A stretch of 57,276 nucleotides of DNA, from positions 1 to 57,276 of IMG/VR virus record IMGVR_UViG_3300025890_000031; one strand, written 5' to 3'. Of this stretch, positions 6,038 through 34,889 are shown in pieces. The notes below the pieces were generated by a model. It made no database searches and was not told the origin of the DNA. It was given only the letters and a program-made list of their open reading frames with translations. This DNA is from a virus. Position numbers and translations under genes: made by a program. The first letter of the stretch is position 1. Every line of letters starts with the position of its first letter.

Positions 6038-6968
6038 TTTCAGGAAACCACATTTCTGCTTTGCTAAACAATTCTATTCTTTCGTCTTTACTTAAATCTG
6101 ATGGGTCATTACCCCAATCAGGTTTATACCTACCAACCATGATAGGTAAGTCTATCTTATCACATACACTAGCACTTGCTAATTTACCAGCCTTATCATT
6201 GTCAAAACATAGAGCAATATAGGCAGGGTTTAGACGATTTAAGAGGGTTTTTTGAAAATCGCTAAAATGTGAGCCTAAAATAGCTAAAGCAGGTATACCA
6301 ACTTCCCAAAAAGCCATTGCATCTAAAGCACCTTCGACTAAAGCTAATCCACCATCATAATTTAACTTTTTCATGTTCTCGTTTATAAGTTGTGACTTTT
6401 GATACTCATGCTGTCCAAATAAATATCCAGCTTTTTGAAAGCCTTTTGGATATAAATATCTAATATTTGCATCTGGGTCTAATCTTCTCTTAATCACACC
6501 AATAACTTTCCCATGAAAAGTTCGTAAAGGTATAGTTACTGAATTACTTAATGGGTCATAGCCTAAAGAAAACTTTTCAATAGTTTTATCAGTTAATCCT
6601 CTTTCAGACCAATAATCATGTGGATATTTATATTGTTCTAGCCATTTTTCATCATGATATGAAGTTTCTTTATCTTTTATTGGGTCTGAAACGTATTCAT
6701 CTAGTTCACGAATAATATTATCTATTGCATCTATTGGTATTTCTTGTAGATATGGATAATTTTTCTTTATTCCTAATCTTCTAAGTAATCCATTCCAATT
6801 ACCCTTTTCTTGACACCCATGACAAATCCATAATCCGTTTTCTTTGTTTACAGCAAAGCTAGGATTACTGTCTGAGTGAAAAGGACACCTACAATAGTAT
6901 TCTTCTTCCGATTCTGTTACAACATCTAAATGTTTTGAAACTATATCGGCACGATACTTATTGACCAC
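6030..6968 (-). CDS. DNA primase (CHC2 zinc finger + TOPRIM)
   Basis: 312 residues. N-terminal CHC2-type zinc-binding motif: YYCRCPFHSDSNPSF then LWICHGCQEKGN. The TOPRIM core lies near residues 205-275: GLALVEGALDAMAFWEVG (catalytic Glu) and IALCFDNDKAG (DxD-type). Makes RNA primers for phage replication with the DnaB-like helicase encoded just upstream (7680-8966). Shorter than bacterial DnaG (about 600 aa) because the C-terminal helicase-binding domain is absent. The start appears to be GTG at 6968, overlapping the previous gene by 11 bp. Confidence 0.9.
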   Translation of the reverse strand: MVNKYRADIVSKHLDVVTESEEEYYCRCPFHSDSNPSFAVNKENGLWICHGCQEKGNWNGLLRRLGIKKNYPYLQEIPIDAIDNIIRELDEYVSDPIKDKETSYHDEKWLEQYKYPHDYWSERGLTDKTIEKFSLGYDPLSNSVTIPLRTFHGKVIGVIKRRLDPDANIRYLYPKGFQKAGYLFGQHEYQKSQLINENMKKLNYDGGLALVEGALDAMAFWEVGIPALAILGSHFSDFQKTLLNRLNPAYIALCFDNDKAGKLASASVCDKIDLPIMVGRYKPDWGNDPSDLSKDERIELFSKAEMWFPENE

Positions 6969-10492: not shown

Positions 10493-10642
10493 CTATTCTT
10501 CCTCTTGTGCAACATTTTTTGTCTGTAGTTTTCTCCCAAATTTCTTATTGTATTGTGTACAGCCAAGATTTTTACAATATCTATAGCCTTTGATATTTTT
10601 ATATTTTCTATTGCAATTTTTGCAATTTTCTATTTTTTTCAT
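10493..10642 (-). CDS. 49-residue Zn-ribbon protein
   Basis: Short basic protein with CKNC (residues 7-10) and CKNLGC (23-28), a four-cysteine zinc-ribbon pattern, then a KKFGRKLQTK basic tail. The start ATG is directly preceded by AGAGAGC, a weak ribosome site that also contains the GAGNNC word enriched in this region. Likely nucleic-acid binding. One of several tiny Zn-ribbon proteins in this genome. Confidence 0.65.
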   Translation of the reverse strand: MKKIENCKNCNRKYKNIKGYRYCKNLGCTQYNKKFGRKLQTKNVAQEEE

Positions 10643-10826
10643 GCTCTCTATTCATCGACTTCTAAAAATTTTCTCTATGTAAAAAATCACCGACCCACAG
10701 ATTTGTGGAAAAATCGTAATTTTTGGTGGGGTGGGGTGAAATATTTAAAATTGTAGTACTCCTCTCCTTATTGCAAAGGGTTGCAAATGGGTTTTAACTA
10801 TCGTGTATGAATGTACGCTCTCTCTA

Positions 10827-11075
10827 TCAATCTCTAAGCTCCAGCGACCAATGTCCATTAAACTTTAAGCTCTCATTACCAGACTTAGCAAGTGATAACT
10901 CGTGATGTAGGTAGGCTTTTGTGCTCTTATTTGAGTTATACGCTACCTGCAAGGGTGGGGGTTGTTGAATTGAGAACATTGGATTAGGTTTTTCTGTCTG
11001 GTTAAATATTAAATCTTTTAGCTCTACATTTTCTCCTGCTATTAGTCCCAGAGTGAATGCTGTCTGTATATTCAT
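10827..11075 (-). CDS. Hypothetical protein
   Basis: 82 residues beginning MNIQTAFTLGLIAGENVELKDLIF; no signal, membrane segment or known motif. GAGAGC, again the array word, stands 3 bp before the start and may serve as the ribosome site. It follows the terminase-small-like gene 11088-11525 by 12 bp, suggesting cotranscription. The 184 bp downstream to 10642 hold array words but no gene. Confidence 0.6.
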   Translation of the reverse strand: MNIQTAFTLGLIAGENVELKDLIFNQTEKPNPMFSIQQPPPLQVAYNSNKSTKAYLHHELSLAKSGNESLKFNGHWSLELRD

Positions 11076-11087
11076 AATGCTCTCATT

Positions 11088-11525
11088 CTAGTCTTTAACT
11101 ATTTCTCCATCAATTTCATCTCGTATAGCTGATAAGTACTCATCTTTAGTCCCATCAACAATCATAACACCCTGCGTTATTGTTTGATTAATTTCACTCT
11201 TACGAGGGCTATCTAGTCCATACATTTTGCTTATTCTATCCATAATGCTCAACGCTCTATCAATAGCACCAAGCTCCCCCTGTTGCACTCTCTCCCAAAG
11301 GATAAGTAACATCTGGTTAAGTCGTTCATATTCAACTGTACGGAGTTCATCTGTTGGCTCGGCTATGATTGATTTCATACTACGTTGTATAGACTTATAT
11401 GCTCCAGAACTATCGGCATACCCTAACTGCTTTGCTATGACCTCATAACTCGCACCTGCTTTCCTAAGCTCTAATGCCTGTCTATCTTTCTCCCTGACCT
11501 CAATGGATTTATTATTTACTTTCAT
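11088..11525 (-). CDS. Terminase-small-subunit-like HTH protein
   Basis: 145 residues. The N-terminal helix-turn-helix ALELRKAGASYEVIAKQLGY is followed by RTVEYERLNQMLLILWERV and a region ending LSIMDRISKMYGLDSP. This order (HTH, then a helical LxxLLxxLW segment, then LxIxxRxxxLxGLDxP) is the pattern of small-terminase-like proteins in many actinophages. Expected to recognise the packaging site and recruit the large subunit, which here lies about 7 kb away (18272-19657). Start ATG 11525 is directly preceded by GAGTAC. A plain HTH regulator is the alternative. Confidence 0.65.
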   Translation of the reverse strand: MKVNNKSIEVREKDRQALELRKAGASYEVIAKQLGYADSSGAYKSIQRSMKSIIAEPTDELRTVEYERLNQMLLILWERVQQGELGAIDRALSIMDRISKMYGLDSPRKSEINQTITQGVMIVDGTKDEYLSAIRDEIDGEIVKD

Positions 11526-11552
11526 GTACTCACTTTACCATACCCAAAAACT

Positions 11553-11679
11553 TAACTGTATGCAACGCCAAACCCAAGCTATCTTGATTATCCCATAGAG
11601 AGCCTTATTTATTGACTTGTTCGCCAATACTTAGGTAGCCTTTTTTGAGTACTTCATTGTTTGCCCCTGCATACAGTTA
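11553..11679. repeat. 12-bp perfect inverted repeat upstream of the terminase-small-like gene
   Basis: TAACTGTATGCA at 11553-11564 and its exact complement at 11668-11679, with 103 bp between. Near the start of the leftward gene 11088-11525. Could be paired operators or the base of a stem in a leader RNA; a role in packaging-site recognition is speculative. Confidence 0.5.
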
Positions 11680-12385
11680 CTAAAAGTACTCGCTACTAAC
11701 CTTATAAATACTACCTCTTTCCTATGAGTGCTTTATTTGACTTCTCTCCGTGCTACTTTATGCTTTGACTTCTAAAATAACTTATAAATGAGTGCTAAGT
11801 CCATACTAATGTTCTGGATAACATCAACCCAATTTTTTTGATTTTTTTTCTTTTTTGTGGGGATTTCTGTAAACTTTTCCCCTCATGTTTTAAATGCACT
11901 CAAATATGTGGCTATCGGCATGGATTGGTATTCTGTATTACCCCTGTGACTTAAAACATATCTTATGAGCTCTTTTTGATTTATTTGCATACTTCGACTT
12001 TTTTCAATTCCCTACTATTTTTTATTTATTTTTGAAAAACTCTTGTTGGTCGTATAAGCTGAAAAGAGTGCACCTAACCCCAAATACTGTCAGCTATAGC
12101 TTGTGAAATAAATCACAAAGATATAGTCTAAGCTACGTACTCATAGGTTTTTTGCTCAAAAATGGCTTATTTCTCCATGAATAATATACATGAAAAATGT
12201 ATAATTATACATGATTTAGGGAGTACATAGGTCTATAAGCCTATGAAATAAGGCTTAAAATAGCCCTTATTTTATGGGGTTTTATGGACGAGTACTAAAA
12301 AAAAACTTTTAAAATAGGCTACCTAAAACAATTACCTACATATAATTGTATTAGATATCTATATATCTAAATTCTCTTGGATTAT
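11680..12385. other. Gene-free AT-rich region with stacked hairpins
   Basis: No credible gene. It holds array words in both orientations and several inverted repeats: TTGTGA-6-TCACAA nested in CTATA/TATAG (12094-12126), the 16-bp palindrome ATGTATAATTATACAT (12197-12212), CATAGG-8-CCTATG (12226-12245) and TTAGATAT-4-ATATCTAA (12351-12370). It separates leftward and rightward early genes, so promoters, operators or a replication origin would fit. Nothing specific enough to choose. Confidence 0.5.
12197..12212. promoter_or_regulatory. 16-bp perfect palindrome ATGTATAATTATACAT
   Basis: Exact self-complementary sequence in the divergent intergenic region. Its half-site ATTATACAT matches the inverted repeat at 1002-1020 upstream of the holin-like gene. 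Candidate operator of a dimeric phage regulator. Confidence 0.4.
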
Positions 12386-12930
12386 GAGGACAATAGGTGG
12401 TAATTAGTCTACAGTCGCTGTCGGAGGACGGAATGGAACTGACTTTTAGCCTAAGTGAAAAATCTCCCAAGAGGACACACAGAGCTTGTGTATTCAAGCT
12501 GACTAGAGGTCAAACGCCTTCTCTTGCGACCTTACTGTCAGATGAGTACATAAGTTATGCCTTCGGTCAAGAGGGCTTAGTCTGTTGTGTTGGTGGTTGA
12601 TTTTATCACAACCATACGACTTGCAGAGTACATCTCAGCATAGCGTGTTGCACCAAGCCTGTTGGAGGGCGATACTTCAGTTCAAGAAGTAAAAACTACC
12701 AAGCTAGGTAGAGGACTAATGCTATATGTGTTAGAAATTGTCTGTGCGTTGGCGTGTAAGGAGGTCTTATTGCAAGTAATCTCCTGTGTAGCCAAATAGT
12801 TTGTGCAAGAGTACCATAATCATATAGAAGTTGTCTTTTCTTAATAACCAAGTTGCTACTTAATAGAGTACGCCTAGTGGATATTCATACGTTACATTTC
12901 GTAGTGTACTCCAGAGAGTGAGAATACATT
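12386..12930 (+). ncRNA. Candidate large structured RNA / leader
   Basis: 545 bp with no convincing gene and higher GC than its surroundings. At least seven local hairpins can be drawn in 300 nt: AGCTTG/CAAGCT (12483-12500), AGGTC/GACCT (12507-12532), GCCTTC-6-GAGGGC (12559-12576), TGGTTG/CAACCA (12594-12614), ACTTC-7-GAAGT (12674-12690), CTACC-6-GGTAG (12696-12711) and GGAG/CTCC with inner TTA/TAA (12760-12784). Thirteen GAGNNC words occur here at 27-57 bp spacing, two inside stems. Either an ornate non-coding RNA or a long operon leader; no known class identified. Confidence 0.5.
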
Positions 12931-13221
12931 ATGAATAGATTAACAAATATAGAAATGCAGGAAATAGTTGAACAGTATGGTGAGGTCACATTCACTAGAA
13001 AACAACTAAAAGTAATTCGTGCATTATTAAACGCTACAACCAAAAAATTAGTTAACGAGTACGACAACAAGAATAGTAAATCTTTTCAAGTTGCTCTAAG
13101 CTCTTTATCTAAATTTAACTTTGATTTTGCTGACTACTGTCAAGAGGTCAATGACAACTTCAAAAGAGAAGTTTGGTTTGATGCTAACAACCTAACACGC
13201 AACGCTAGGCGTATATGGTAA
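12931..13221 (+). CDS. Hypothetical protein, first gene of the ATPase-VWA operon
   Basis: 96 residues, helical and charged: MNRLTNIEMQEIVEQYGEVTF, then KQLKVIRALLNATTKKLVNEY and a tail NNLTRNARRIW. No signal or membrane segment. It follows the structured 12.4-12.9 kb region and overlaps the next small gene by 7 bp (ATGGTAA). No family recognised. Confidence 0.75.
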   Translation: MNRLTNIEMQEIVEQYGEVTFTRKQLKVIRALLNATTKKLVNEYDNKNSKSFQVALSSLSKFNFDFADYCQEVNDNFKREVWFDANNLTRNARRIW

Positions 13222-13376
13222 GAGTACTTAAATCAAAGTATTGGTGGTATTATGGCTTATTGTTTACAAAAATAAACAATATTCATTGTAGAGTACACTA
13301 CAAGACATGGCTCAAAATGTATGACTTTTATTCTTATAAAATTGAAAAAGGACTATCTATGTGGGAGGACTGCTAA
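13215..13376 (+). CDS. 53-residue hypothetical protein overlapping both neighbours
   Basis: Short gene starting MVRVLKSKYWWYYGLLFTKI and ending EKGLSMWEDC; basic and aromatic. Its ATG lies in the last codons of the upstream gene (overlap ATGGTAA) and its stop overlaps the next start (TAATG), so translation is probably coupled on both sides. No motif recognised. Confidence 0.55.
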   Translation: MVRVLKSKYWWYYGLLFTKINNIHCRVHYKTWLKMYDFYSYKIEKGLSMWEDC

Positions 13377-13528
13377 TGATGGTTGACACTAGAATAAAAT
13401 GTCTATGTGGAGAACACATGGCTAAAATAAGCGTAATGGCTAACGTAAAAAGTACAACATTAGTACAATTTTTATGTTTCCATTGTGGTGCGAGTACAAT
13501 CGCCAAAGAACAAAGTAAAAGAATATAG
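13376..13528 (+). CDS. 50-residue Zn-ribbon protein
   Basis: Begins MMVDTRIKCLCGEH and has a second pair CFHCG near residue 33: two CxC/CxxC knuckles typical of a zinc ribbon. A strong ribosome site GGAGGA lies 7 bp before ATG 13376 and is itself part of a GAGGAC array word. It is followed by about 90 bp containing the left copy of the 23-bp inverted repeat. Confidence 0.65.
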   Translation: MMVDTRIKCLCGEHMAKISVMANVKSTTLVQFLCFHCGASTIAKEQSKRI

Positions 13529-13572
13529 GAATATATTGGAGTACACTACGAAGTGTATAGTATGAAATATAA

Positions 13573-13595
13573 ATTCAGTTATCTACGATAGGTCT
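13573..13595 (+). repeat. Left copy of 23-bp perfect inverted repeat
   Basis: Starts ATTCAGTTATCTACG and ends ATAGGTCT. Its exact reverse complement is at 16500-16522. The two copies bracket the ATPase and VWA genes (13621-16483), each sitting in the leader of the next gene (26 bp and 34 bp before starts). A 23-bp exact match is far beyond chance in this window. Confidence 0.85.
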
Positions 13596-13620
13596 GTGTC
13601 CTCGGAAAAGGAATAATAAA

Positions 13621-14514
13621 ATGAGTAAGAACACTCTAGCAGAGAACATCTCTGCATTAATACCTAACAAATCGCTTGAAAATTATGTCAAGAGAATTGT
13701 TGACGGAGGTCAAAACGACCTAGAACTACTAGATTACGCACACAAAAGCAGACACAATGTCCTCATTTCTGGGGATACAGGTGTTGGAAAAACTCATTGT
13801 GTTTCGGCACATGCAGAGAACATTCAATTACCCTTTGTATCTATTGCTTGTAATGGTGCGACTAACCCAGACCAAATGTTCGGTATGTTTATGCCGAGTA
13901 CAGAGGGAAAAGGTTTTGAATGGACAGATGGTGTCGTGACCTCATTGGTTAGACATGGTGGCGTTCTTTTGCTTGATGAAGTGAACTTTATGAAAGCAGA
14001 TATTGCCGCTGCCCTCCACCCATTACTAGATAGTCGTAGAACACTAACCTTAGTTGAAAATGGGGGAGAGGTCATCAAAGCTCATAAGGATTTTCAAGTT
14101 GTTGCTTGTATAAATCCTAACTATGAGGGCACAAGACCATTAAACGAAGCCTTTAAAAATCGTTTTGCCTTACAGGTAGAATTTGATTATGAAGGTAACT
14201 CAGAGGACATTTTGATTGATGGTAGACCAAGTTTACTTGAATTAGCCGATAGGTTAAGAGAAAGTAGAGAAAATGGAACTATCACAACACCTGTGAGTAC
14301 AAACGCTTTAATGGAATTTTGTGAGTTTGTTGAGGACTTGGGAATAGAGTTTGCTATAAGCAACTTTGTTAACAGATTTGAAATAGATGAACGAAGTGCA
14401 ATCAAAGAGTACTTTGATGTATTAATTCCTCAAATAGCAAGTGAATTTGGAACTGATGTTCCTGAACTCTTTGTTGTTGAACAACCAGATGAGGAAACTG
14501 ATACAGATGAATAG
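13621..14514 (+). CDS. CobS/MoxR-like AAA+ ATPase
   Basis: 297 residues. Walker A GDTGVGKTHC near residue 50, the pore-loop region NPDQMFGMFMPS, Walker B VLLLDEVNF near 115-123, sensor 1 FQVVACINPNYEGTRPLN, and an arginine-finger region EAFKNRFALQVEF. These are the marks of the AAA_5 MoxR/CobS/NorQ group, which remodel a VWA-domain partner. The partner is the next gene, overlapping by 8 bp. Phage homologues are often labelled CobS although no cobalamin role is shown. Starts at ATG 13621, 26 bp after the 23-bp repeat. Confidence 0.9.
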   Translation: MSKNTLAENISALIPNKSLENYVKRIVDGGQNDLELLDYAHKSRHNVLISGDTGVGKTHCVSAHAENIQLPFVSIACNGATNPDQMFGMFMPSTEGKGFEWTDGVVTSLVRHGGVLLLDEVNFMKADIAAALHPLLDSRRTLTLVENGGEVIKAHKDFQVVACINPNYEGTRPLNEAFKNRFALQVEFDYEGNSEDILIDGRPSLLELADRLRESRENGTITTPVSTNALMEFCEFVEDLGIEFAISNFVNRFEIDERSAIKEYFDVLIPQIASEFGTDVPELFVVEQPDEETDTDE

Positions 14515-16483
14515 TCATGGCGAGGACAATCTAAGTTTAGATGAAGTCCAAAAAATTCTCAATATGCACGAGGACAACGAAGATAGAGTTTTCGGAGATA
14601 TTGAAATGCAAGAACGACATGAGGACGTACAACGAGAAAGCAGTCGTATGAAAGCGATTGGTAATGCCTTTGCGAGTACATTTACTAAAGTAAATCGTAT
14701 TCTATCAGGTCAAAACGAAATCAATGTACTTATGACAGAGGACAATGCAGGTGTTGACGCACCTGCTTGGACTGATGGAGAACACGTTTATTTGAATAAG
14801 GCTTATGTGAATAAATCTTTTTCTAGTATTTTTAATAATGCTAAAATTGATTTTTCACAAATAGCTGAGGTCAAAGGCTTGAACTACCATGAGTTAGCTC
14901 ATATATTCTATACCCCACGAATGAGTGATAAAATCACTAAGCTCGTGAGGGCAAAAGCCGATTTAGATAATGATTGGTGGTATGCGTACAATGTACTAGA
15001 GGATATGAGGGCAGAAAGCTCTATCATTCATGTTTATTCTAAAATGATTGACTATTTCACTTATACAGTTATTAAGTACATATTGAATAATGAGGACAAC
15101 GAAAATGACACTTCGTATTTTCTTTTAAGTGGTAGATTTTTTCTACCTATTGAAATGAGAAATATGATGAGGTCATTATTCGCTCAAAAATATGGTACTA
15201 AATTCACTAAGAATATGGATAGCATTGTTAAGAAATATGTGGCTGAGGTCACATATACTTCTGCAAGGTATCAAGAGGGCTATGATTTGATTGAACGATT
15301 TGTGCTTGAAGTAATCAAGCCAATGAGGGCAAAAAGTGGTCAAGCCTTACCTAAGTGTATCGGTGGTAGTAGCCACCAACAACACCACCATGCAGGAGCT
15401 AAACGAGGAGGACATTGGAATAGCCGAAATGAAATGGGCAATATGTGGAAAGGAAAAACACAAGTTGCAGACCAAAAAGAGGTCAAACCATTCATTGAGG
15501 AACTAATTGATGAAGTTGAGAGTTTAGAAAAACAGGCAGGAAAACTTGGTGCTAAAGCAAGTAAGGGGAGTACTGATAATTTAAGTGCTAGTGAAGTTAA
15601 TGTTGAATTAGAAAAAATCTTAGAGATTGTGGAAAAGAGTCCACAATTTAAGAGTGATGTTAAAATTACTCAAAAAGATATTAGTCATAAAATAGAAACA
15701 GCTATAGAGGACAGTTATATTAAAGGTCTTGAAGTAGCTCCTAGTTTATTGACACCTAGTCAGAGTACATTAGCTACAAAAATACGTTTAAGGCGTTATT
15801 TTAGACAATTAAGAATGGACTTAGAGCAGGATTGGTTGACAGAAAAGAGGTCAGGCAAGGTTGATTTAAGTCGTTTTATGTCTACAGAACATTTAGGAAA
15901 AACCGACATTTTTAAACGTTGGAAACCTAATGACGAGGACGTAGCTAGTGCTGAATGTGTAATTCTTGTTGATATGTCTGGTAGTATGTCAGGCGTTATG
16001 GACTCTGTTAGTCAAATAGCTTGGCTATTAAAGAGTGAGTTAGACAATATAAATGTGAGGACTTCAGTTCTTGGATTTGCTAATAATTGTTATAAACTAT
16101 ATACACCAAACCAAAAAGCCGACAGAGGTCAATACTCTGCTTGGGCTAGTGGTGGGGGTACACAACCAATTTACACATTAAAACAAGCTAATAAAATATT
16201 GACTAAAACCGATAGAAAAAATAAGGTAGTTATTGCCCTCACTGATGGTGCATGGACTAACCATGATGATGAAATCGAGGAGGTCAAGAACTTGACTAAA
16301 AATTGTGATAGCTCAAACTTGCTATTCTTTGGCTCTTTTTACTCTTTTGAGGACAGAGGCAAAGATGAGAAAGTGAGTTTTTCACATTTTGATAATCTTA
16401 TTAAAATTAATAAGATTGAGGACACAGTAAAAGTAGCTAAACAATTAGTTGCCGATATTGTAAATAAAGTAATAAACCAATAA
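14507..16483 (+). CDS. VWA-domain protein with HExxH metallopeptidase motif (CobT-like)
   Basis: 658 residues from ATG 14507, which overlaps the ATPase stop (ATGAATAG); an upstream in-frame ATG (14441) lies inside the ATPase gene. Residues near 125 carry NYHELAHIFYTP, an HExxH zinc-peptidase-type motif. The C-terminal 200 residues form a von Willebrand A domain with an intact MIDAS: VDMSGSMSG, a Thr in GGGTQP and ALTDGAW. The middle is helical and charged. Works with the ATPase as a chaperone or metal-insertase-like machine. CobT-like proteins are known in marine phages; the substrate here is unknown. Confidence 0.88.
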   Translation: MNSHGEDNLSLDEVQKILNMHEDNEDRVFGDIEMQERHEDVQRESSRMKAIGNAFASTFTKVNRILSGQNEINVLMTEDNAGVDAPAWTDGEHVYLNKAYVNKSFSSIFNNAKIDFSQIAEVKGLNYHELAHIFYTPRMSDKITKLVRAKADLDNDWWYAYNVLEDMRAESSIIHVYSKMIDYFTYTVIKYILNNEDNENDTSYFLLSGRFFLPIEMRNMMRSLFAQKYGTKFTKNMDSIVKKYVAEVTYTSARYQEGYDLIERFVLEVIKPMRAKSGQALPKCIGGSSHQQHHHAGAKRGGHWNSRNEMGNMWKGKTQVADQKEVKPFIEELIDEVESLEKQAGKLGAKASKGSTDNLSASEVNVELEKILEIVEKSPQFKSDVKITQKDISHKIETAIEDSYIKGLEVAPSLLTPSQSTLATKIRLRRYFRQLRMDLEQDWLTEKRSGKVDLSRFMSTEHLGKTDIFKRWKPNDEDVASAECVILVDMSGSMSGVMDSVSQIAWLLKSELDNINVRTSVLGFANNCYKLYTPNQKADRGQYSAWASGGGTQPIYTLKQANKILTKTDRKNKVVIALTDGAWTNHDDEIEEVKNLTKNCDSSNLLFFGSFYSFEDRGKDEKVSFSHFDNLIKINKIEDTVKVAKQLVADIVNKVINQ

Positions 16484-16499
16484 CACATTAGAGGGCATT

Positions 16500-16522
16500 A
16501 GACCTATCGTAGATAACTGAAT
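16500..16522 (-). repeat. Right copy of 23-bp perfect inverted repeat
   Basis: Exact reverse complement of 13573-13595. Lies 17 bp after the VWA stop and 34 bp before the next start. In a transcript through the operon the two copies could pair and loop out the whole ATPase-VWA coding region; in DNA they could act as recombination sites. Confidence 0.85.
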
Positions 16523-16556
16523 ATCTTAACTACTCTTTATAGAAATGGAGGACTGC

Positions 16557-16721
16557 ATGAATTTGCAACCTATGTTTTTCAAAGATTGCCCTAACTGTAA
16601 CATGAGTACAGTATGGACAGCTTTGGAACAAGTTAATGAACTCGAACAACGTGTAGAATGTGATGAATGTCAAACGACAGAAATCATGCCTAGAGTTGCA
16701 GAGGACTTAGTCAATGGTTGA
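16557..16721 (+). CDS. 54-residue Zn-ribbon protein
   Basis: Contains CPNC (residues 11-14) and CDEC (about 35-38) separated by a helix, a standard zinc ribbon. Ribosome site GGAGGAC with 5 bp to ATG 16557, nearly the same leader as the Zn-ribbon gene at 13376 (GGAGGACTGC before the start). Its end overlaps the next gene by 8 bp. Probably binds nucleic acid or protein; partner unknown. Confidence 0.7.
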   Translation: MNLQPMFFKDCPNCNMSTVWTALEQVNELEQRVECDECQTTEIMPRVAEDLVNG

Positions 16722-17100
16722 TGATATTAAAAACATTTTAATTTCACTTAACCAAATAAGATTAAGTCGTATGAGTTTAGATGACCAAGAGAGTACTTTA
16801 AAACAACGATTACTAGATTATTTTAAATCTAGTGATATGGCTAAATTCAATGTATCACATGAGGGCAAGAATATACGTGCTACCCAAGTGAACAATGATA
16901 GAGTTATTATTGATGAGTTAGGACTTATAGAGAACATATCTCCAGAACAATATGATAAAATCATAAAAAAATCTGTTGATAGAAAACTCTTAGAAATAGC
17001 CATTAGTAATGGGGATATTAGCGAGGACTTAGCTAAACAGTTTATTAAAGTACAAGCAGGAAAAAAATACATTAAACTTAATGTTGAGGAGGACAAGTAA
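16714..17100 (+). CDS. Hypothetical protein
   Basis: 128 residues. The N-terminal helix MVDDIKNILISLNQIRLSRM precedes a beta-rich part (GKNIRATQVNNDRVIIDELG) and a helical end (VDRKLLEIAISNGDISEDLAKQF). Begins inside the previous gene and ends abutting the next (stop and ATG share an A at 17100). Cytoplasmic; no family recognised. Confidence 0.75.
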   Translation: MVDDIKNILISLNQIRLSRMSLDDQESTLKQRLLDYFKSSDMAKFNVSHEGKNIRATQVNNDRVIIDELGLIENISPEQYDKIIKKSVDRKLLEIAISNGDISEDLAKQFIKVQAGKKYIKLNVEEDK

Positions 17101-17399
17101 TGGTACAACCACCAAATACTAGCCCCTCAGCATTGAGGACTTATGTTAATAGTAAGACAAGAAATAAAATGTATTTACCAAGTGACCTAGCGAGGTCATT
17201 AGGTGTGTCTGTTAAAACAGTACGCAGGTGGATTAAGGAGAGCAAAATATTACCTAGTGTTCATTTAGAACAAGGAAAAAACCTTATACCCCTATGGACT
17301 GCCGAGGACATAATCTATGTACAGAATTGGTATCTAAAGAAAAGTAAAGGAAAACAACCCAAATATAGAGAGGAGGTCAGTACTGATGATAACATTTAG
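17100..17399 (+). CDS. MerR/excisionase-type HTH protein
   Basis: 99 residues with a winged-helix DNA-binding motif LPSDLARSLGVSVKTVRRWI followed by KESKILPSV, as in MerR/HTH_17 proteins and phage excisionases. The tail is basic (KKSKGKQPKY). GAGGAGGAC gives a strong ribosome site. Likely regulates early transcription or recombination. It is encoded within the GAGNNC array and is a candidate reader of those sites, but there is no direct evidence. Confidence 0.75.
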   Translation: MVQPPNTSPSALRTYVNSKTRNKMYLPSDLARSLGVSVKTVRRWIKESKILPSVHLEQGKNLIPLWTAEDIIYVQNWYLKKSKGKQPKYREEVSTDDNI

Positions 17400-17589
17400 T
17401 AGTGGCTTACATTTCGGCATTATTGTAACTATGATTTCTGTAGTTATGTTTTTAGCATACGAGGTCTTTAATGTACTTCGTTTGTCTTATGCCGAATATA
17501 AATATAATAAAGAAAAACCTATTGAAGTAGACTTCTCCACGAGGTCTGGTAGAGAAAAGTTTTTCAATGAAACTTACAAAAAATGGTAA
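17386..17589 (+). CDS. Small single-TM protein
   Basis: 67 residues. One membrane helix FGIIVTMISVVMFLAYEVF follows a short N-terminus; the rest is charged (EYKYNKEKPIEVDF..GREKFF). AGGAGGTC is the ribosome site. Overlaps both neighbours by 7-14 bp. Membrane role unknown. Confidence 0.7.
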   Translation: MITFSSGLHFGIIVTMISVVMFLAYEVFNVLRLSYAEYKYNKEKPIEVDFSTRSGREKFFNETYKKW

Positions 17590-17798
17590 AAACATCTAGC
17601 TTAGACGAGGGCGATACTGTTGAACATTCGCTTACAGTTGAAACGAATGTTTTAGGCAATAAGATATGGCTTAAAACAGGAGCAACAACTAAGGTGAGGA
17701 CAGGGGAAACCCCAAGTGGTGCTAGTAAAAGATTAGCCAACTTTGTGAGTAGGAGAACATCTCAGCAATTACAAGAGTTGAGAAAAACAAGCGAGTAG
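17583..17798 (+). CDS. Hypothetical protein, last gene of early operon
   Basis: 71 residues: DEGDTVEHSLTVETNVLGNKIWLKTGATTKVRTGETPSGASKRL..., predicted small beta-sheet then helix. Short proteins with a similar GDTVEHSxTV...VKxGATTxVRxxET layout are, as far as I recall, common in actinophages. Followed 22 bp later by a strong terminator. Confidence 0.7.
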   Translation: MVKTSSLDEGDTVEHSLTVETNVLGNKIWLKTGATTKVRTGETPSGASKRLANFVSRRTSQQLQELRKTSE

Positions 17799-17820
17799 TT
17801 GAGTACGTATTTCATACAAT

Positions 17821-17869
17821 GGGATAGCAATTTTATTAATTTAAAATTTGCTATCCCCACTTTTTTTTT
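17821..17869 (+). terminator. Rho-independent terminator of the plus-strand operon
   Basis: GGGATAGCAA (17821-17830) pairs perfectly with TTGCTATCCC (17848-17857); the loop can extend the stem with further A-T pairs. A run of nine T follows at 17861-17869. Ends transcription of the operon that starts near 12.4-12.9 kb. Confidence 0.9.
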
Positions 17870-18271
17870 GCTCTCTTTTTCACTTTCTTCTATCGCTGCT
17901 ATTTTTTATTATTGCTTTTTTTTTGCTCTCTTTTAGAAGCAAAATGGCTGGGGGTTCAGGTAAAAAAAAAGTACTCGTCACCATCATGGGCATCTGGATT
18001 GTTATAAAATGCACTCATATTTTTGGTGATTTCGTCAGGAGCATCTGCACTCTTTTAAATATTCTTCTTCCTTCGCTGCACAGTACTCTAAAACTTATTG
18101 CGAACCCTTGCAAAAATAATTTGTACTCAAAAATGAGAAAAAAAAAGTTTTGTCCTCTTTTTCTACGGATATGTCTTCTAGGGACTTTTCAAAATGCACT
18201 CGGAAATTCAAAAACTTTACAATTCAGGTTGAAGGTGATTTATGTTTTACGAAAGTAGAGTGCTAAATTTA
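17870..18271. other. Gene-free interval carrying minus-oriented array words
   Basis: 402 bp with no credible gene. It holds GNNCTC words (GAGNNC on the minus strand) at 17870, 17925, 17971, 18011, 18047, 18083, 18123, 18152 and 18196, mean spacing about 41 bp, and a last plus copy at 18258. It lies just downstream of the large terminase gene, so these words follow that gene's transcription direction. Confidence 0.65.
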
Positions 18272-19657
18272 TTAAACAGACCAGGGACTTTTCTGTCTTA
18301 CAAAATCAATTAATGGTGCGATTGCTTCAAACTTATATCCACGTTCAGCCCAAGCTAAAGCCATAGCTACCATACTGTCAGGTGTATGACCATTTCCATA
18401 TATATCATCAAAACCTGCGTATTTGTGGTCTTGATACATACTTTCTACCATAGGACTTTGAATTAACCCACGCTCACAAGCAGATATATATTCAGAAAAT
18501 AAATTCTTTTTATTACTACCAGTAATTACATAAGGTATTGAATCTATTTCTATGTAATCTTCTACAACATTACCTATACCAGTAGCGTCATGTACTAGCT
18601 TACCAGGGTATTTCGCCACTCTATCCTGTGCTTTTTTAACCATATCTCCCCATGCTTCTCTGTGTGTTCTTTCAAAAGCAACTACACGCCATGGTTCTAC
18701 GTCAGTTCTAAGGGTTGCTATTACTGTGTAATCTCGTTGCTTAGCCCAGTCAATGCCAGTAATGTATACCCCCTCCCCATTGTATTTTTCAAATAAATAT
18801 TCTTTACCTACTTCTCCAGATACTTTTGGATGAGTGCTTAATGAAAACATTTCATCGACTTTAGCTGCGTCTATAGCTCTACCTTCAAAAGAAGGTTCTT
18901 GCATATCAAATTCTATATCCCACATAGCTTGTGAAACTTCACTTCTTTTTCTTTCTACTTCTGAAACTGGTAGCCAGCCATGTGGTTGTACTGTTTCTCT
19001 CCAACACCATTCATAAACAGGATATCCTTTTTCTTTAGCTCTTTTAAGCATTTCTGTCATAGTTTTATCTGGATACTGGTGTGTAGAAGAAGCTACAGTT
19101 TGTGTTTGAATGCCATTTTTAGACATAGGTTGCCCCTGTGCTGCCTCTAAAATCTCTAATTCCATTTCGTCTATCTCATCAAGCCTTAGTCTTTGTGGAT
19201 GTTGACCACGAACAGACCTTTGTGAAGCCGTTAAAGCTCTAATCCAAGCTCCTGTAGTTAAGTTTGTTGAATATTTATTAGGTTGGTCGACTAAAAGACC
19301 TGTAGGTGCGTTCTTATGTGCCCATGCTTCTAAAGATATTTCATAAACACGAAGTGATTGTGCTGCTGAACCACCTAAAACTGTTACTTGTGCCCCTAGT
19401 GTTACTGCTTCAGTTAAAGCTAGTAGCCCTAATGTATTAGTTTTTCCTCCCATACCACGACTAGCCTTCCAAATAGAAAAAGGTGACCTTGCAAAATAAG
19501 CATCAGCAAAAGCATCAAATGGAGATTGGTGGTGTGGACAAATAGGTGTTCTAGGTATTGATATTCCCCATAATAAACGAACTACTTCCCATAATTCATC
19601 ATTATCTTGTGGTGGTCTACCTAATATTAATTGTTTTTTTGCTTCGGTTTTTTCCAT
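18272..19657 (-). CDS. terL: Terminase large subunit
   Basis: 461 residues, typical size. ATPase part: Walker A ASRGMGGKTNT near residue 68, Walker B LRLDEIDEMEL near 160, coupling motif VASSTHQYP. Nuclease part: GIDWAKQRDYTV (first Asp), LVHDATGIG and HTPDSMVAMALAW. Packages DNA through the portal and cuts it. It stands alone: the small-subunit candidate is at 11088-11525 and the portal at 4535-6037. The gene end marks the right limit of the GAGNNC array. Confidence 0.95.
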   Translation of the reverse strand: MEKTEAKKQLILGRPPQDNDELWEVVRLLWGISIPRTPICPHHQSPFDAFADAYFARSPFSIWKASRGMGGKTNTLGLLALTEAVTLGAQVTVLGGSAAQSLRVYEISLEAWAHKNAPTGLLVDQPNKYSTNLTTGAWIRALTASQRSVRGQHPQRLRLDEIDEMELEILEAAQGQPMSKNGIQTQTVASSTHQYPDKTMTEMLKRAKEKGYPVYEWCWRETVQPHGWLPVSEVERKRSEVSQAMWDIEFDMQEPSFEGRAIDAAKVDEMFSLSTHPKVSGEVGKEYLFEKYNGEGVYITGIDWAKQRDYTVIATLRTDVEPWRVVAFERTHREAWGDMVKKAQDRVAKYPGKLVHDATGIGNVVEDYIEIDSIPYVITGSNKKNLFSEYISACERGLIQSPMVESMYQDHKYAGFDDIYGNGHTPDSMVAMALAWAERGYKFEAIAPLIDFVRQKSPWSV

Positions 19658-20537: not shown

Positions 20538-21968
20538 TTAGCCTTCTATATGCTTTGGAGTTGAACCTGGTTTAAGTGGGTCATACATATCTCCACCTTT
20601 ACCTTCTTTTTTATCATACACAACACCTCTTCTTTTCGCAGCAAAGTTGTCTAAGTATGTTACAGGCATATCAGGTTTTACTCTTTCTTTAACTAAATTT
20701 TGACCTGGGTTTCCACCGTATATTAACAAATGCTCTGGTTGTAAAGCATCTAAAGCTATTTTTGTACAATTAGCTAATACTTGTGTTGATTTTTCTCTTG
20801 TATCACGGTTTGGATTACCTTCTTCAGCGTCTATGTTTTGTAAGCAAATAGCTAAGATTGGTGGATTTTTTGGTATTCCTAACATAGCAATATCCATTGA
20901 TTGTTCATCTGCAAATTGAACACGTGGTATTACCTTCATACCAGTTTCTTGAAACATACGACCTAACCATTGTGCGTTATAGACTGCTTGTAAATGAAAA
21001 GCCTTTGGCTCTGTATAATAAAAAGAGAAGTCTGGTACAACTGCTGTTTTAATTCCAGCAGCTAAGACTTTTTGTATCATGTATCCAGTATGTGTTATAA
21101 AATTAAAAAACTTATCATCATAAGTAAAGAAAGACATAATAGCTCTGTCATACGGCATACCTATTGGTCTTGCTAATCCGTAGTTCCATAGCCAATGTGT
21201 TATACCATCATCAGGTGTAGCATCTCTACCTGCCCAAGTATCTAAGGGTTTTGGTAGTTTTTCTAATAACATATCTCTTCTAAGTTCTGGTATATCCCAT
21301 CTGTTATTTGTTGGTAAGAATAACTTTTCTTCGTCAATCATCATTATGTTATTATCTATTTGTTCGTCTAATTCTTCATTATCATCAAACCCATCCAGGT
21401 CATCTTCATTTTCTGTGCTCAAAATATTATCAGTTGGTAATCCGTCACCAATATCTAGTGTGTCTGGTATAGAAATATCTACACCTTGTGGGTTTGATAA
21501 ACCTTCAACATAAGTATCTAATCCTGCGTTCGTGCTTGTTAAACCTTCAAATGTTTGTGAAAGACTTCTGTCAACAGCATCAACTATTAAGCTAACATCT
21601 TGTTCTGTATAGCCAGTACCAATAGGGTTGCTAACATTTTGCAATAAATTAGCTAATTGACTTGTATCATAAGTTGCTAAATCGTTTGTTCTGTTGTCTG
21701 CTAATACTATTTTTGAAGCTGATTCATCATCTACATCAACAAAAGCTACTGATATAGTTTCCCATCCTAAAGATTTAGCCGCTAACCATGTGTGGTTTCC
21801 TGCTAAAATAGAATTATCTTTTTGGTTAACAACAATAGGTTTATACTGTTTATTTTCGTCTAATGATTCAGCTATAGCTTCTATGCTACCTATTCTGGGA
21901 TTTCCCTTGTATGCTTTTAATGTATCTAGCTTTACATCTTTTATTTCTACAACCCTATTGTTTGACAT
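20538..21968 (-). CDS. ParB-like domain fused to DUF4417
   Basis: 476 residues. Residues 1-120 are a ParB/Srx nuclease-type domain: LDTLKAYKGNPRIGSIEAIAESL, YKPIVVNQKDNSILAGNHTWLAAKSLGW and ASKIVLADNRTND. An acidic linker (170-240) joins a C-terminal DUF4417: SFFTYDDKF, AVVPDFSFY, AQWLGRMFQETGMKVIPRVQF, LGIPKNPPILAI and LLIYGG. ParB-type domains of this kind often accompany phage DNA methylation or nucleotide hydrolysis. DUF4417 has no established activity. It may act on DNA or virion assembly. 14-bp overlap with the WhiB gene. Confidence 0.8.
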   Translation of the reverse strand: MSNNRVVEIKDVKLDTLKAYKGNPRIGSIEAIAESLDENKQYKPIVVNQKDNSILAGNHTWLAAKSLGWETISVAFVDVDDESASKIVLADNRTNDLATYDTSQLANLLQNVSNPIGTGYTEQDVSLIVDAVDRSLSQTFEGLTSTNAGLDTYVEGLSNPQGVDISIPDTLDIGDGLPTDNILSTENEDDLDGFDDNEELDEQIDNNIMMIDEEKLFLPTNNRWDIPELRRDMLLEKLPKPLDTWAGRDATPDDGITHWLWNYGLARPIGMPYDRAIMSFFTYDDKFFNFITHTGYMIQKVLAAGIKTAVVPDFSFYYTEPKAFHLQAVYNAQWLGRMFQETGMKVIPRVQFADEQSMDIAMLGIPKNPPILAICLQNIDAEEGNPNRDTREKSTQVLANCTKIALDALQPEHLLIYGGNPGQNLVKERVKPDMPVTYLDNFAAKRRGVVYDKKEGKGGDMYDPLKPGSTPKHIEG

Positions 21969-22347
21969 TTTTCTCCTTTGCTTGCAATTCTAATACTTTT
22001 TCATAATTATCTTGTAATAATTTTCTTTCTTGTGGTGTGTAACCACCAAATATACCTTCGTCAGACTTTGTTATTACTGCAAAGTCTAAACATTCCCTTT
22101 GAACTTCACATCCTTTACAAATACTTTTAGCTTCATCTTCTGTGTATAAATATTCTCCATTTACTTTAACTGTTGGGAAGAAAATATTACTATCTCTACC
22201 AACGCAGTTACCATAGTTTTTCCAATCTCCTTCAAGTAATATCTGAATATCATCTATTGTTTTCCAGTTACTTGGCTTTTCTCTTATGAAAGAAGGTTGA
22301 AACTTAGGTATGAGCTTGCCATATTTAAGTTGTTCGTCTTCTTCCAT
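21955..22347 (-). CDS. WhiB-family iron-sulfur transcription regulator
   Basis: 130 residues. The four cluster ligands are visible: NCVGRDSNIFFP (first Cys), then ICKGCEVQRECLDFA (CxxCxxxxxC), followed by the GIFGGYT turn. This is the WhiB-like (Wbl) signature, a family confined to actinobacteria and their phages, and is the best host marker in the window. Phage Wbl proteins repress host whiB genes or bind sigma factor. Overlaps the resolvase gene by 23 bp. Confidence 0.92.
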   Translation of the reverse strand: MEEDEQLKYGKLIPKFQPSFIREKPSNWKTIDDIQILLEGDWKNYGNCVGRDSNIFFPTVKVNGEYLYTEDEAKSICKGCEVQRECLDFAVITKSDEGIFGGYTPQERKLLQDNYEKVLELQAKEKNVKQ

Positions 22348-22861
22348 TCACTACTTCCTTATCCCATCCGTAAAGTGCTATGCCTGTTGCATCACACATA
22401 TCTTGATTAGCAAATTCAGTCGTTGGGTACATACTTTTTATATGTGTAGCTATTTCATCTTTCTTAGCATTTCCTTTTCCTATGGCTACTTTTTTCCAGC
22501 TAGAGTTATTAACAAGCTGTGTCGGTATGTTGTATCTTTGTAGTGTATCTATTATCGCACCAGCTACATAAGTCTGACTAACTGTAGACCAAACGCCACC
22601 TTTACCCACTACTGCTCCTTCTACAAAAGCGTAAGTAGAATATTGTAAGTCTGGGTCTAGTTGTGTTACTACTCTATGTACGAATGTTGTAGCTACAGTT
22701 ATATGATTTAAGTCGAATTTATTACCTGGAAATGGTTGATAATAACAATATGGTTTTAAGTTTTCAGGATTAGTGTCGTCTTCTCCGTGAAATAGTGTTA
22801 GTGCTAGTCGTCTTGCGGATGGGTCAATTCCTATAACTTGCCATTTGATACCCTTCGTCAT
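22325..22861 (-). CDS. RuvC-like Holliday junction resolvase
   Basis: 178 residues with an RNase H fold: VIGIDPSARRLALTLF (first Asp), AFVEGAVVGKGG (Glu), VNNSSWKKVAIGKGNAKKDEI, and MCDATGIALYGW (last Asp). Length and spacing match RuvC-type junction endonucleases. Would resolve recombination intermediates made by the RecA-like protein and clear DNA before packaging. Starts inside the end of 22824-23198. Confidence 0.85.
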   Translation of the reverse strand: MTKGIKWQVIGIDPSARRLALTLFHGEDDTNPENLKPYCYYQPFPGNKFDLNHITVATTFVHRVVTQLDPDLQYSTYAFVEGAVVGKGGVWSTVSQTYVAGAIIDTLQRYNIPTQLVNNSSWKKVAIGKGNAKKDEIATHIKSMYPTTEFANQDMCDATGIALYGWDKEVVNGRRRTT

Positions 22862-33846: not shown

Positions 33847-33878
33847 AATGCTATTCTATCATGCTATTATATCTATTA

Positions 33879-34889
33879 ATGAAAAATTTTCACATAAAAA
33901 TACAAGGAAGTGGACTGCCAGCACACTTAGCATTGCTTAAATACCACAAATACAATAAAATTAATTGGAATTATGCTGATACAGAATTTACCTTACCTAT
34001 GTCATCTACATTGGACTTTATACCTTTTATGCAAGATTCAATAAATTTTAGTTGGTCTGATTTAAAATTGTTTAATGGTAATTTAAAAACTGGTGTAAAT
34101 AAAGTAAACTTTAACAATAAATCATTTGATTCAAACTTTAAACCACCTTTTGTAGCTCTACACTTTGATTCTTTAAGTATGTCTAAATATCTATATAGTA
34201 AATGCAAATATAATTCTACAAAAAAAAGTGATATTTTAATAGATGCAAGTAAGCCAGTTGACATGTCAAATTATCTAACTTTAAATCATGTACCGACTAA
34301 TTGTGCTATTGGATATAAATATAAAGAGGAATATGCTTCAACTAAAACTAAGTTAGAAGCTACTGAACATGGATGGATTCAGACTATACCGACTGCTAAA
34401 TATGTTTATGTTTATTACATTTTTAATAGTGATATTAATAATCCACAAGATATCGCTGATTCCTTGCCACTAAGAAATTATAACTATGAATTAATAAACT
34501 TTTCTAGTTACTATTTGCAAAATCCTTTTTTAGAAAATCATTTAAAATTAGGATTAAATACTTTTTTTATTGAACCTTTTGATGCTACATCTTTAAGTGG
34601 TAATTTAAGACTTTTAGATTTATTTACTGACGTACAAAATAAACACATGAAGCACTCTGATGCTTTATATTATTACTTTGATTATATTAAAGAAGCTATG
34701 GAGGTATTAATGCTACATTACGTATCAGACGTACCTTTTAAATCAGAATTTTGGCGAAATGCTAAAGATAAAGCTGAAGATTATTTAATTAATACTGGTA
34801 TAAAAAAAAGAGATATAAGTAATTTTTATAGCAAAGAAGGTTATAAAAAATTATATAAAAACTTGAACGTTTCTAATTATATTCAATAA
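33879..34889 (+). CDS. Divergent flavin-dependent halogenase-like protein
   Basis: 336 residues from ATG 33879 (MKNFHIKIQGSGLPAHLAL); an in-frame ATG at 33861 is possible. The opening IQGSGLPAHLALLKY resembles the FAD-binding GxGxxG turn of tryptophan halogenases, EHGWIQTIPTAKYVYVYYIF matches the family WxWxIP motif region, and FFIEPFDATSLSGNL matches the EPLExTGL-type motif. Shorter than PrnA (about 530). Halogenase-like genes occur in marine phages. Lone plus-strand gene, converging by 17 bp with 34873-35148. The substrate is unknown and activity uncertain. Confidence 0.65.
   Translation: MKNFHIKIQGSGLPAHLALLKYHKYNKINWNYADTEFTLPMSSTLDFIPFMQDSINFSWSDLKLFNGNLKTGVNKVNFNNKSFDSNFKPPFVALHFDSLSMSKYLYSKCKYNSTKKSDILIDASKPVDMSNYLTLNHVPTNCAIGYKYKEEYASTKTKLEATEHGWIQTIPTAKYVYVYYIFNSDINNPQDIADSLPLRNYNYELINFSSYYLQNPFLENHLKLGLNTFFIEPFDATSLSGNLRLLDLFTDVQNKHMKHSDALYYYFDYIKEAMEVLMLHYVSDVPFKSEFWRNAKDKAEDYLINTGIKKRDISNFYSKEGYKKLYKNLNVSNYIQ

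Follow-up and report, generated by a model that had tools for sequence, protein, structure and literature searches.

Short DNA words that recur within a genome are known from several systems. The stoperators of cluster A mycobacteriophages are asymmetric sites of about 13 bp, and matS, the word of the matS/MatP system, is 13 bp long and avoided outside the one domain to which it is confined, with about 23 sites in 800 kb that are not evenly spaced. In cyanobacteria, the short word HIP1 is iterated through the genome and may be linked to methylation (PMC4390886). Resolvases of the RuvC type bind DNA by structure and cut at short, species-specific words such as (A/T)TT↓(G/C), TTC and (G/C)TC↓(G/C) (PMC9601230, PMC6736871). 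Here we analyse a 57,276-nt stretch of virus DNA ('the window'; IMG/VR record IMGVR_UViG_3300025890_000031), the genome of what we call the window phage, in which the hexamer GAGNNC forms a dense, evenly spaced array at positions 10643–18263 that we term the comb.

The comb resembles each of these systems in part. Like stoperators, its words are asymmetric, occur at many sites per phage genome and come in lineage variants, and in the window phage and its close relatives ('the window clade') they mostly point along transcription; unlike stoperators, they have four fixed bases, number 123 in 7.6 kb, are regularly spaced, lie within coding sequence and are reversed in some relatives. Stoperators are described as sparse in each genome and as the binding sites of a known repressor (PMC9283540); the window proteins scanned, which include some of the small open reading frames, contain no recognisable immunity repressor. 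With matS/MatP the comb shares a word kept to one domain and avoided elsewhere, but its spacing is about 60 bp; with HIP1 it shares an iterated short word, but HIP1 is an 8-bp palindrome, whereas comb words are 3–5 bp long, non-palindromic and regularly spaced. The cut words of RuvC- and MOC1-type resolvases are likewise short and species-specific, one of them being (G/C)TC↓(G/C), and comb phages encode a RuvC-type resolvase; however, regular genomic spacing of such words is not reported in the literature searched, and the window clade limits its word to one domain. In the open-access literature searched we found no description of an evenly spaced short-word comb in phages and no paper containing the string 'GAGNNC', and such a code, whose dialects can change in place, is apparently undescribed.

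Results

A preliminary description of the window, made from the sequence alone, had counted about 120 GAGNNC on both strands of 10643–18263 and judged their density to be several-fold above that expected from composition. The coordinates were right, and our count is 123 sites (90 forward, 33 reverse); across 300 dinucleotide-shuffled versions of the region, a control that description had proposed, the count was 29.9 ± 5.6 with a maximum of 46, so that the real count is about 4-fold enriched. In the remaining 49.6 kb, by contrast, the word is avoided about 7-fold (25 sites versus about 166 expected from shuffles), and GAG is the window's most avoided trinucleotide outside the comb (observed/expected 0.61). 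The word array ignores genes and reading frames, as first described, and runs through coding and non-coding DNA. Codon usage is indeed insufficient to explain it: in synonymous-codon shuffles that keep the protein and its codon usage, the VWA gene holds 30 GAGNNC versus 10.8 ± 2.7, the AAA+ gene 14 versus 5.2 ± 1.8 and the helix-turn-helix (HTH) gene 5 versus 1.0 ± 0.9. Together, the two kinds of shuffle rule out chance, composition and codon usage as the cause of the array, although not all forms of selection on coding sequence.

GAGGNC (61 sites inside the array, 0 outside) and GAGNNC ranked top in an unbiased search over gapped words. The aligned site contexts carry the word alone, with flanks devoid of further information, in agreement with the initial impression that there is no longer consensus; positions 4, 5 and 7 do show weak preferences. 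C accounts for 5 of 246 bases at positions 4 and 5, and the base directly after GAGNNC is A or T at 111 of 123 sites, giving the preferred form GAG[GTA][AGT]C[AT]. Tandem repeats, iterons and a CRISPR array were rejected because the contexts share only the word, without conserved flanks or spacers. The array has no Rfam match and no tRNA, and scans of the remaining window sequence for exact or degenerate words revealed no second regular one.

The sites are quasi-regularly spaced. Gaps in the array average 62 bp (s.d. 20; coefficient of variation (CV) 0.32), compared with a CV of 0.99 ± 0.09 for random placement, and range from 27 to 113 bp except for one palindromic overlap (GAGCTC at 11967). 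Orientation runs in blocks. Over the TerS operon (10643–11531, minus block) 11 sites lie on the minus strand and 3 on the plus strand, ending at the start codon of a 49-aa gene (10493–10642); orientation is mixed in the divergent non-coding region (11598–12142); 80 sites on the plus strand and 9 on the minus strand make up a plus block that spans the AAA+/VWA operon together with its non-coding leader (12221–17806); and in the minus block along the 3′ flank of the large terminase gene TerL (17870–18263) all nine sites at 17870–18196 are on the minus strand, followed by a single plus-strand site (18258) at a distance of 14 bp from the TerL stop. Antisense sites fill spacing gaps as equals of sense sites. 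Without the minority-strand sites, gaps in the plus-strand block would reach 172 bp (13896 to 14068) rather than at most 113 bp, and the mean gap is 64, 64 and 62 bp for neighbours on ++, +− and −+ strands and somewhat shorter (51 bp) for −−. In seven data sets, gaps measured on one strand at a time show no regularity beyond that obtained with permuted strand labels, and regularity emerges only when the strands are pooled, which points to duplex DNA as the object that is read. Outside avoidance, quasi-regular spacing, the extra consensus and the one-stranded blocks had all escaped the preliminary description. Same-strand gaps in the window clade also show an 11-bp-like rhythm (P = 0.003; 0 of 27 control words as strong). 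The idea that helical phasing is rigid in general was rejected, as the signal is suggestive in the window clade and unconvincing against control words in phages with a GAG comb and in the cultured phage GMA6.

The relatives of the window phage are metagenome contigs, many of them short, and a comb unseen in a fragment does not show its absence. Three loci whose TerL is 92% identical (L001, L002 and L004; L and G labels denote relative loci and genomes) share the comb, with 132, 133 and 123 sites, mean gaps of 58–59 bp and a CV of 0.32. The VWA protein beneath it is only 57% identical in close relatives, where 9 of 14 AAA+ sites and 14 of 30 VWA sites occupy the same alignment column. Across the whole array, 77 of the 123 sites are shared with L001 at 70% nucleotide identity versus 30 expected under free drift of the four bases, such that the word is kept while surrounding bases change, the behaviour that the preliminary description had proposed looking for. 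Sites present only in the window phage lie a median of 12.5 bp from a site present only in L001 (control 26.9 ± 4.7), indicating that site losses are compensated nearby.

In L003 (TerL 88%), a 14.7-kb sequence that does not include RuvC, primase or RecA genes, the GAGNNC comb is absent and 125 copies of GCGNNC occupy the same place, with a mean gap of 60 bp and a CV of 0.32. The GCGNNC sites in coding DNA fall mostly in other columns than the GAGNNC sites. In the non-coding DNA after the TerL stop, GCGNNC sites lie at +5, 70, 113, 142, 181 and 211, and GAGNNC sites at +7, 67, 112, 141, 180 and 210. Both dialects thus place the first site 5 or 7 bp past the TerL stop, and in both the final site precedes the start codon of the 49-aa gene by 6 bp. 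The identical edges and near-identical flank positions indicate that the word switched while the domain and the flank positions were kept.

More distant relatives carry combs that span much or all of the genome. We collected 75 further loci by means of TerL alignments that contain two 54%-identical relatives, and tested every exact or degenerate short word for a peaked versus exponential gap distribution; in 42 dinucleotide-shuffled loci, no word scored above 13.5 with this detector. GAG combs scored 139 in L064, 93 in L073, 92 in L131 (G010), 60 in L061, 54 in L059, 48 in L068, 42 in L060 and 29 in both L057 and L062; L060 and L061, whose primases are identical in the alignment, may be one phage. 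A GAGK comb near the AAA+/VWA genes of G006 scored 38, GCGR combs scored 88 in L076, 54 in L075 and 34 in L074, and we also detected CAGG in L095 (score 54, mean 100 bp, CV 0.22) and CAGGG in L080 (score 23, mean 153 bp, CV 0.20). Scanning more widely with another statistic was uninformative, because words of 12-bp mean gap swamped it. In L064, GAG has a CV of 0.40 and all other trinucleotides at least 0.85. The word shows no enrichment in these phages; it is a little less frequent than expected, and its copies are spread evenly (G012: 305 versus 404 ± 17). Successive gaps are uncorrelated, which points to a preferred length for each gap. Over the AAA+/VWA genes, sites are sense in the window phage and antisense in L059 and L068, and orientation is mixed in L064. 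G016 (L135–L138) uses the GCGR dialect, with GCGA predominant on one strand over the AAA+/VWA genes (25 of 27) and GCGG commoner elsewhere. No comb was detected in the distant relatives G005, G007, L053, L034, L036, DalanDe and Cantare. Dense GGNGG-type words at about 51–56 kb of G002 and 10–14 kb of L036 probably reflect glycine-rich repeat proteins, and L053 has short direct repeats of ACTAGA type at 6825–6860, near its AAA+ homologue.

Searches with the TerL protein against 50,697 phage records and bacterial genome contigs returned no match, and the array itself had no near-identical counterpart among phage records. The VWA protein and the RuvC-like protein both hit a single set of 16 records, from Gordonia phages and Brevibacterium phage Cantare, which have a replication/recombination module in common with the window phage. 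Two Gordonia phages in culture, GMA6 and FlyingTortilla, have a weaker version of the comb, genome-wide. GMA6 has 2811 regularly placed GAG sites across 83 kb (CV 0.60; next trinucleotide 0.88), with regularity peaking over the AAA+/VWA genes (CV 0.45), and the GAG CV is 0.69 in FlyingTortilla and 0.80 in ChisanaKitsune; no regular GAG was found in DalanDe, T7 or lambda. Since GMA6 has no recognisable homologue of the window TerL, a reader of the comb, if phage-encoded, is likelier to lie in the replication/recombination module than among packaging genes. In Cantare (L149, 30–79 kb), GAG/CTC is strongly and evenly avoided (observed/expected 0.29, the lowest trinucleotide), which parallels the avoidance in the window outside the comb.

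The genes within the array encode a small terminase-like DNA-binding protein (11088–11525, minus strand; weak phrog_5334, phrog_645), a MoxR/CobS-like AAA+ ATPase (13621–14514, plus strand), a CobT/CoxE-like VWA protein (14441–16483, plus strand, as the listed open reading frame; the true start may be further in) and a 99-aa MerR-like HTH protein (17100–17399, plus strand). Between the divergent TerS and AAA+ operons, about 1.4 kb (11526–12930) without a convincing gene or Rfam match is filled by the comb and is possibly a promoter or origin region. TerL (18272–19657, minus strand), whose stop codon forms the right boundary of the comb, adjoins a gene for ParB_N fused to DUF4417 (20538–21968, minus strand), a phage ParB-like nuclease that is part of the shared module and that also adjoins WhiB (21955–22347), RuvC-like and Cas4-like genes. 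The RuvC-type Holliday junction resolvase (22325–22861, minus strand) lies outside the comb; residues D13, E81, D154 and D157 are invariant across 12 homologues, and the best PDB matches of its structure model are the RuvC proteins of D. radiodurans, T. thermophilus, P. aeruginosa and E. coli. Elsewhere, the window phage encodes a tryptophan halogenase-like flavoprotein (33861–34889).

Discussion

To account for the observed words, their spacing and orientation-independence, the domain edges, the avoidance and the dialects, we tentatively favour a reading in which the words are anchors for a putative DNA-binding protein assembled on the comb, with spacing giving specificity; protein binding, cooperativity and any function, be it silencing, protection or organisation of the domain, are what we infer. 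The protein would bind the words on double-stranded DNA and build a spaced array along a selected part of the phage genome. Because a word of three or four bases is too common to serve as an address alone, the comb, with a word every 60 bp or so on either strand, would be the address, and assembly would proceed cooperatively on evenly spaced words but not on host DNA bearing the same word at random intervals. In the window clade the array would form one domain, extending from the TerS operon through the divergent non-coding region and the AAA+/VWA operon to the TerL stop, and stray words outside it would be purged by selection because they would mis-nucleate the protein. A protein-binding array, suggested in the preliminary description by analogy with stoperators, is still the best reading, although unproven; the analogy itself fails on word length, and orientation across the family fits it only in part. 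Several points weigh against such an array: no module gene separates the two groups of genomes by occurring in every one with a comb and in none without; in GAG phages, helical phasing is weak or fails to convince when other trinucleotides serve as controls; one protein family would have to span preferred gaps from 39 to 153 bp among phages; and three base pairs offer a binding protein very little to recognise. In its favour are the regularity of the pooled strands and the nearby compensation of site losses, and the 11-bp-like rhythm of the window clade adds a little support. The MerR-like HTH protein, whose structure model has modest confidence, was rejected as a universal reader, as no homologue was found in the comb genomes G010, G011, G006 and G016.

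Because RuvC words are short and species-specific, a serious rival, if a rather unlikely one, is a grid of sites at which the phage's own RuvC-type resolvase, presumed to be sequence-specific, would cut. A Holliday junction would be cut only once branch migration brings it onto a word; the time to reach a word would rise steeply with the gap, making even spacing best, while surplus words would cost mis-cleavage of forks or junctions. A RuvC-type gene, carrying the catalytic D-E-D-D set and with a predicted fold that matches RuvC, occurs in all comb genomes with a sequenced recombination region (the window phage, L002, G010, G011, G006, G016, GMA6 (KR063280, 70563–71153) and FlyingTortilla), but also in G007, G005 and DalanDe, where no comb was detected. 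The comb word CTC is compatible with (G/C)TC, yet the base 3′ of CTC in L073 is mostly A or T, versus G/C in D. radiodurans, and GAGNNC and GCGNNC are dissimilar to known resolvase words. Orientation-independence and a 3-bp word would come naturally to such a grid, and D. radiodurans RuvC also cleaves forks and nicked duplexes carrying TC (PMC9601230), a possible cost of surplus words. In GAG genomes words are available wherever junctions form, but in the window clade they are confined to 7.6 kb and avoided in 49.6 kb, which would leave most junctions uncuttable. The binding array is the better account of the sharp domain, the outside avoidance and the kept flank positions.

That the words are targets of a DNA-modifying enzyme, an idea already raised in the preliminary description, is improbable, but we keep it as a rival. 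The comb would leave no long unmodified stretch and so protect against nucleases, a role that even coverage by few sites would suit; the dialect words are short, each of them (GAG, GCG, CAG) contains an A or C with G as the next base, and the change from A to C swaps two bases that bear an exocyclic amino group. However, the window proteins scanned include no recognisable DNA methyltransferase or hypermodification enzyme (although an enzyme of the host could act), GMA6 is not among the phages with methylase genes reported by its describers (PMC4524720), and modification leaves the avoidance of close pairs unexplained. Reading of a single strand, as primase start sites, Chi-like sites or the RNA-level marks entertained at first, has very little to recommend it. 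Trinucleotide words are typical of DnaG primases and the one-strand blocks over the AAA+/VWA genes are strong, but per-strand spacing is not regular beyond permuted labels in any of the seven data sets, and orientation over those genes flips to antisense in two relatives. Regularity at the level of the duplex, with antisense sites equal to sense sites in spacing, disfavours all three.

We give about even chances that the comb represents a previously undescribed genome code, in which short words are near-equally spaced in duplex DNA, word and interval are specific to the lineage, the code can be confined to a domain and its dialect switched in place, and spacing provides specificity. The comb must have a reader that measures distance as well as sequence, and because the cultured phages GMA6 and FlyingTortilla show it, this reader can be sought in the laboratory. 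The comb would bear on how phages mark, organise or, in recombination, resolve their own DNA, and on the kinds of selection that act across coding sequence beyond the protein.

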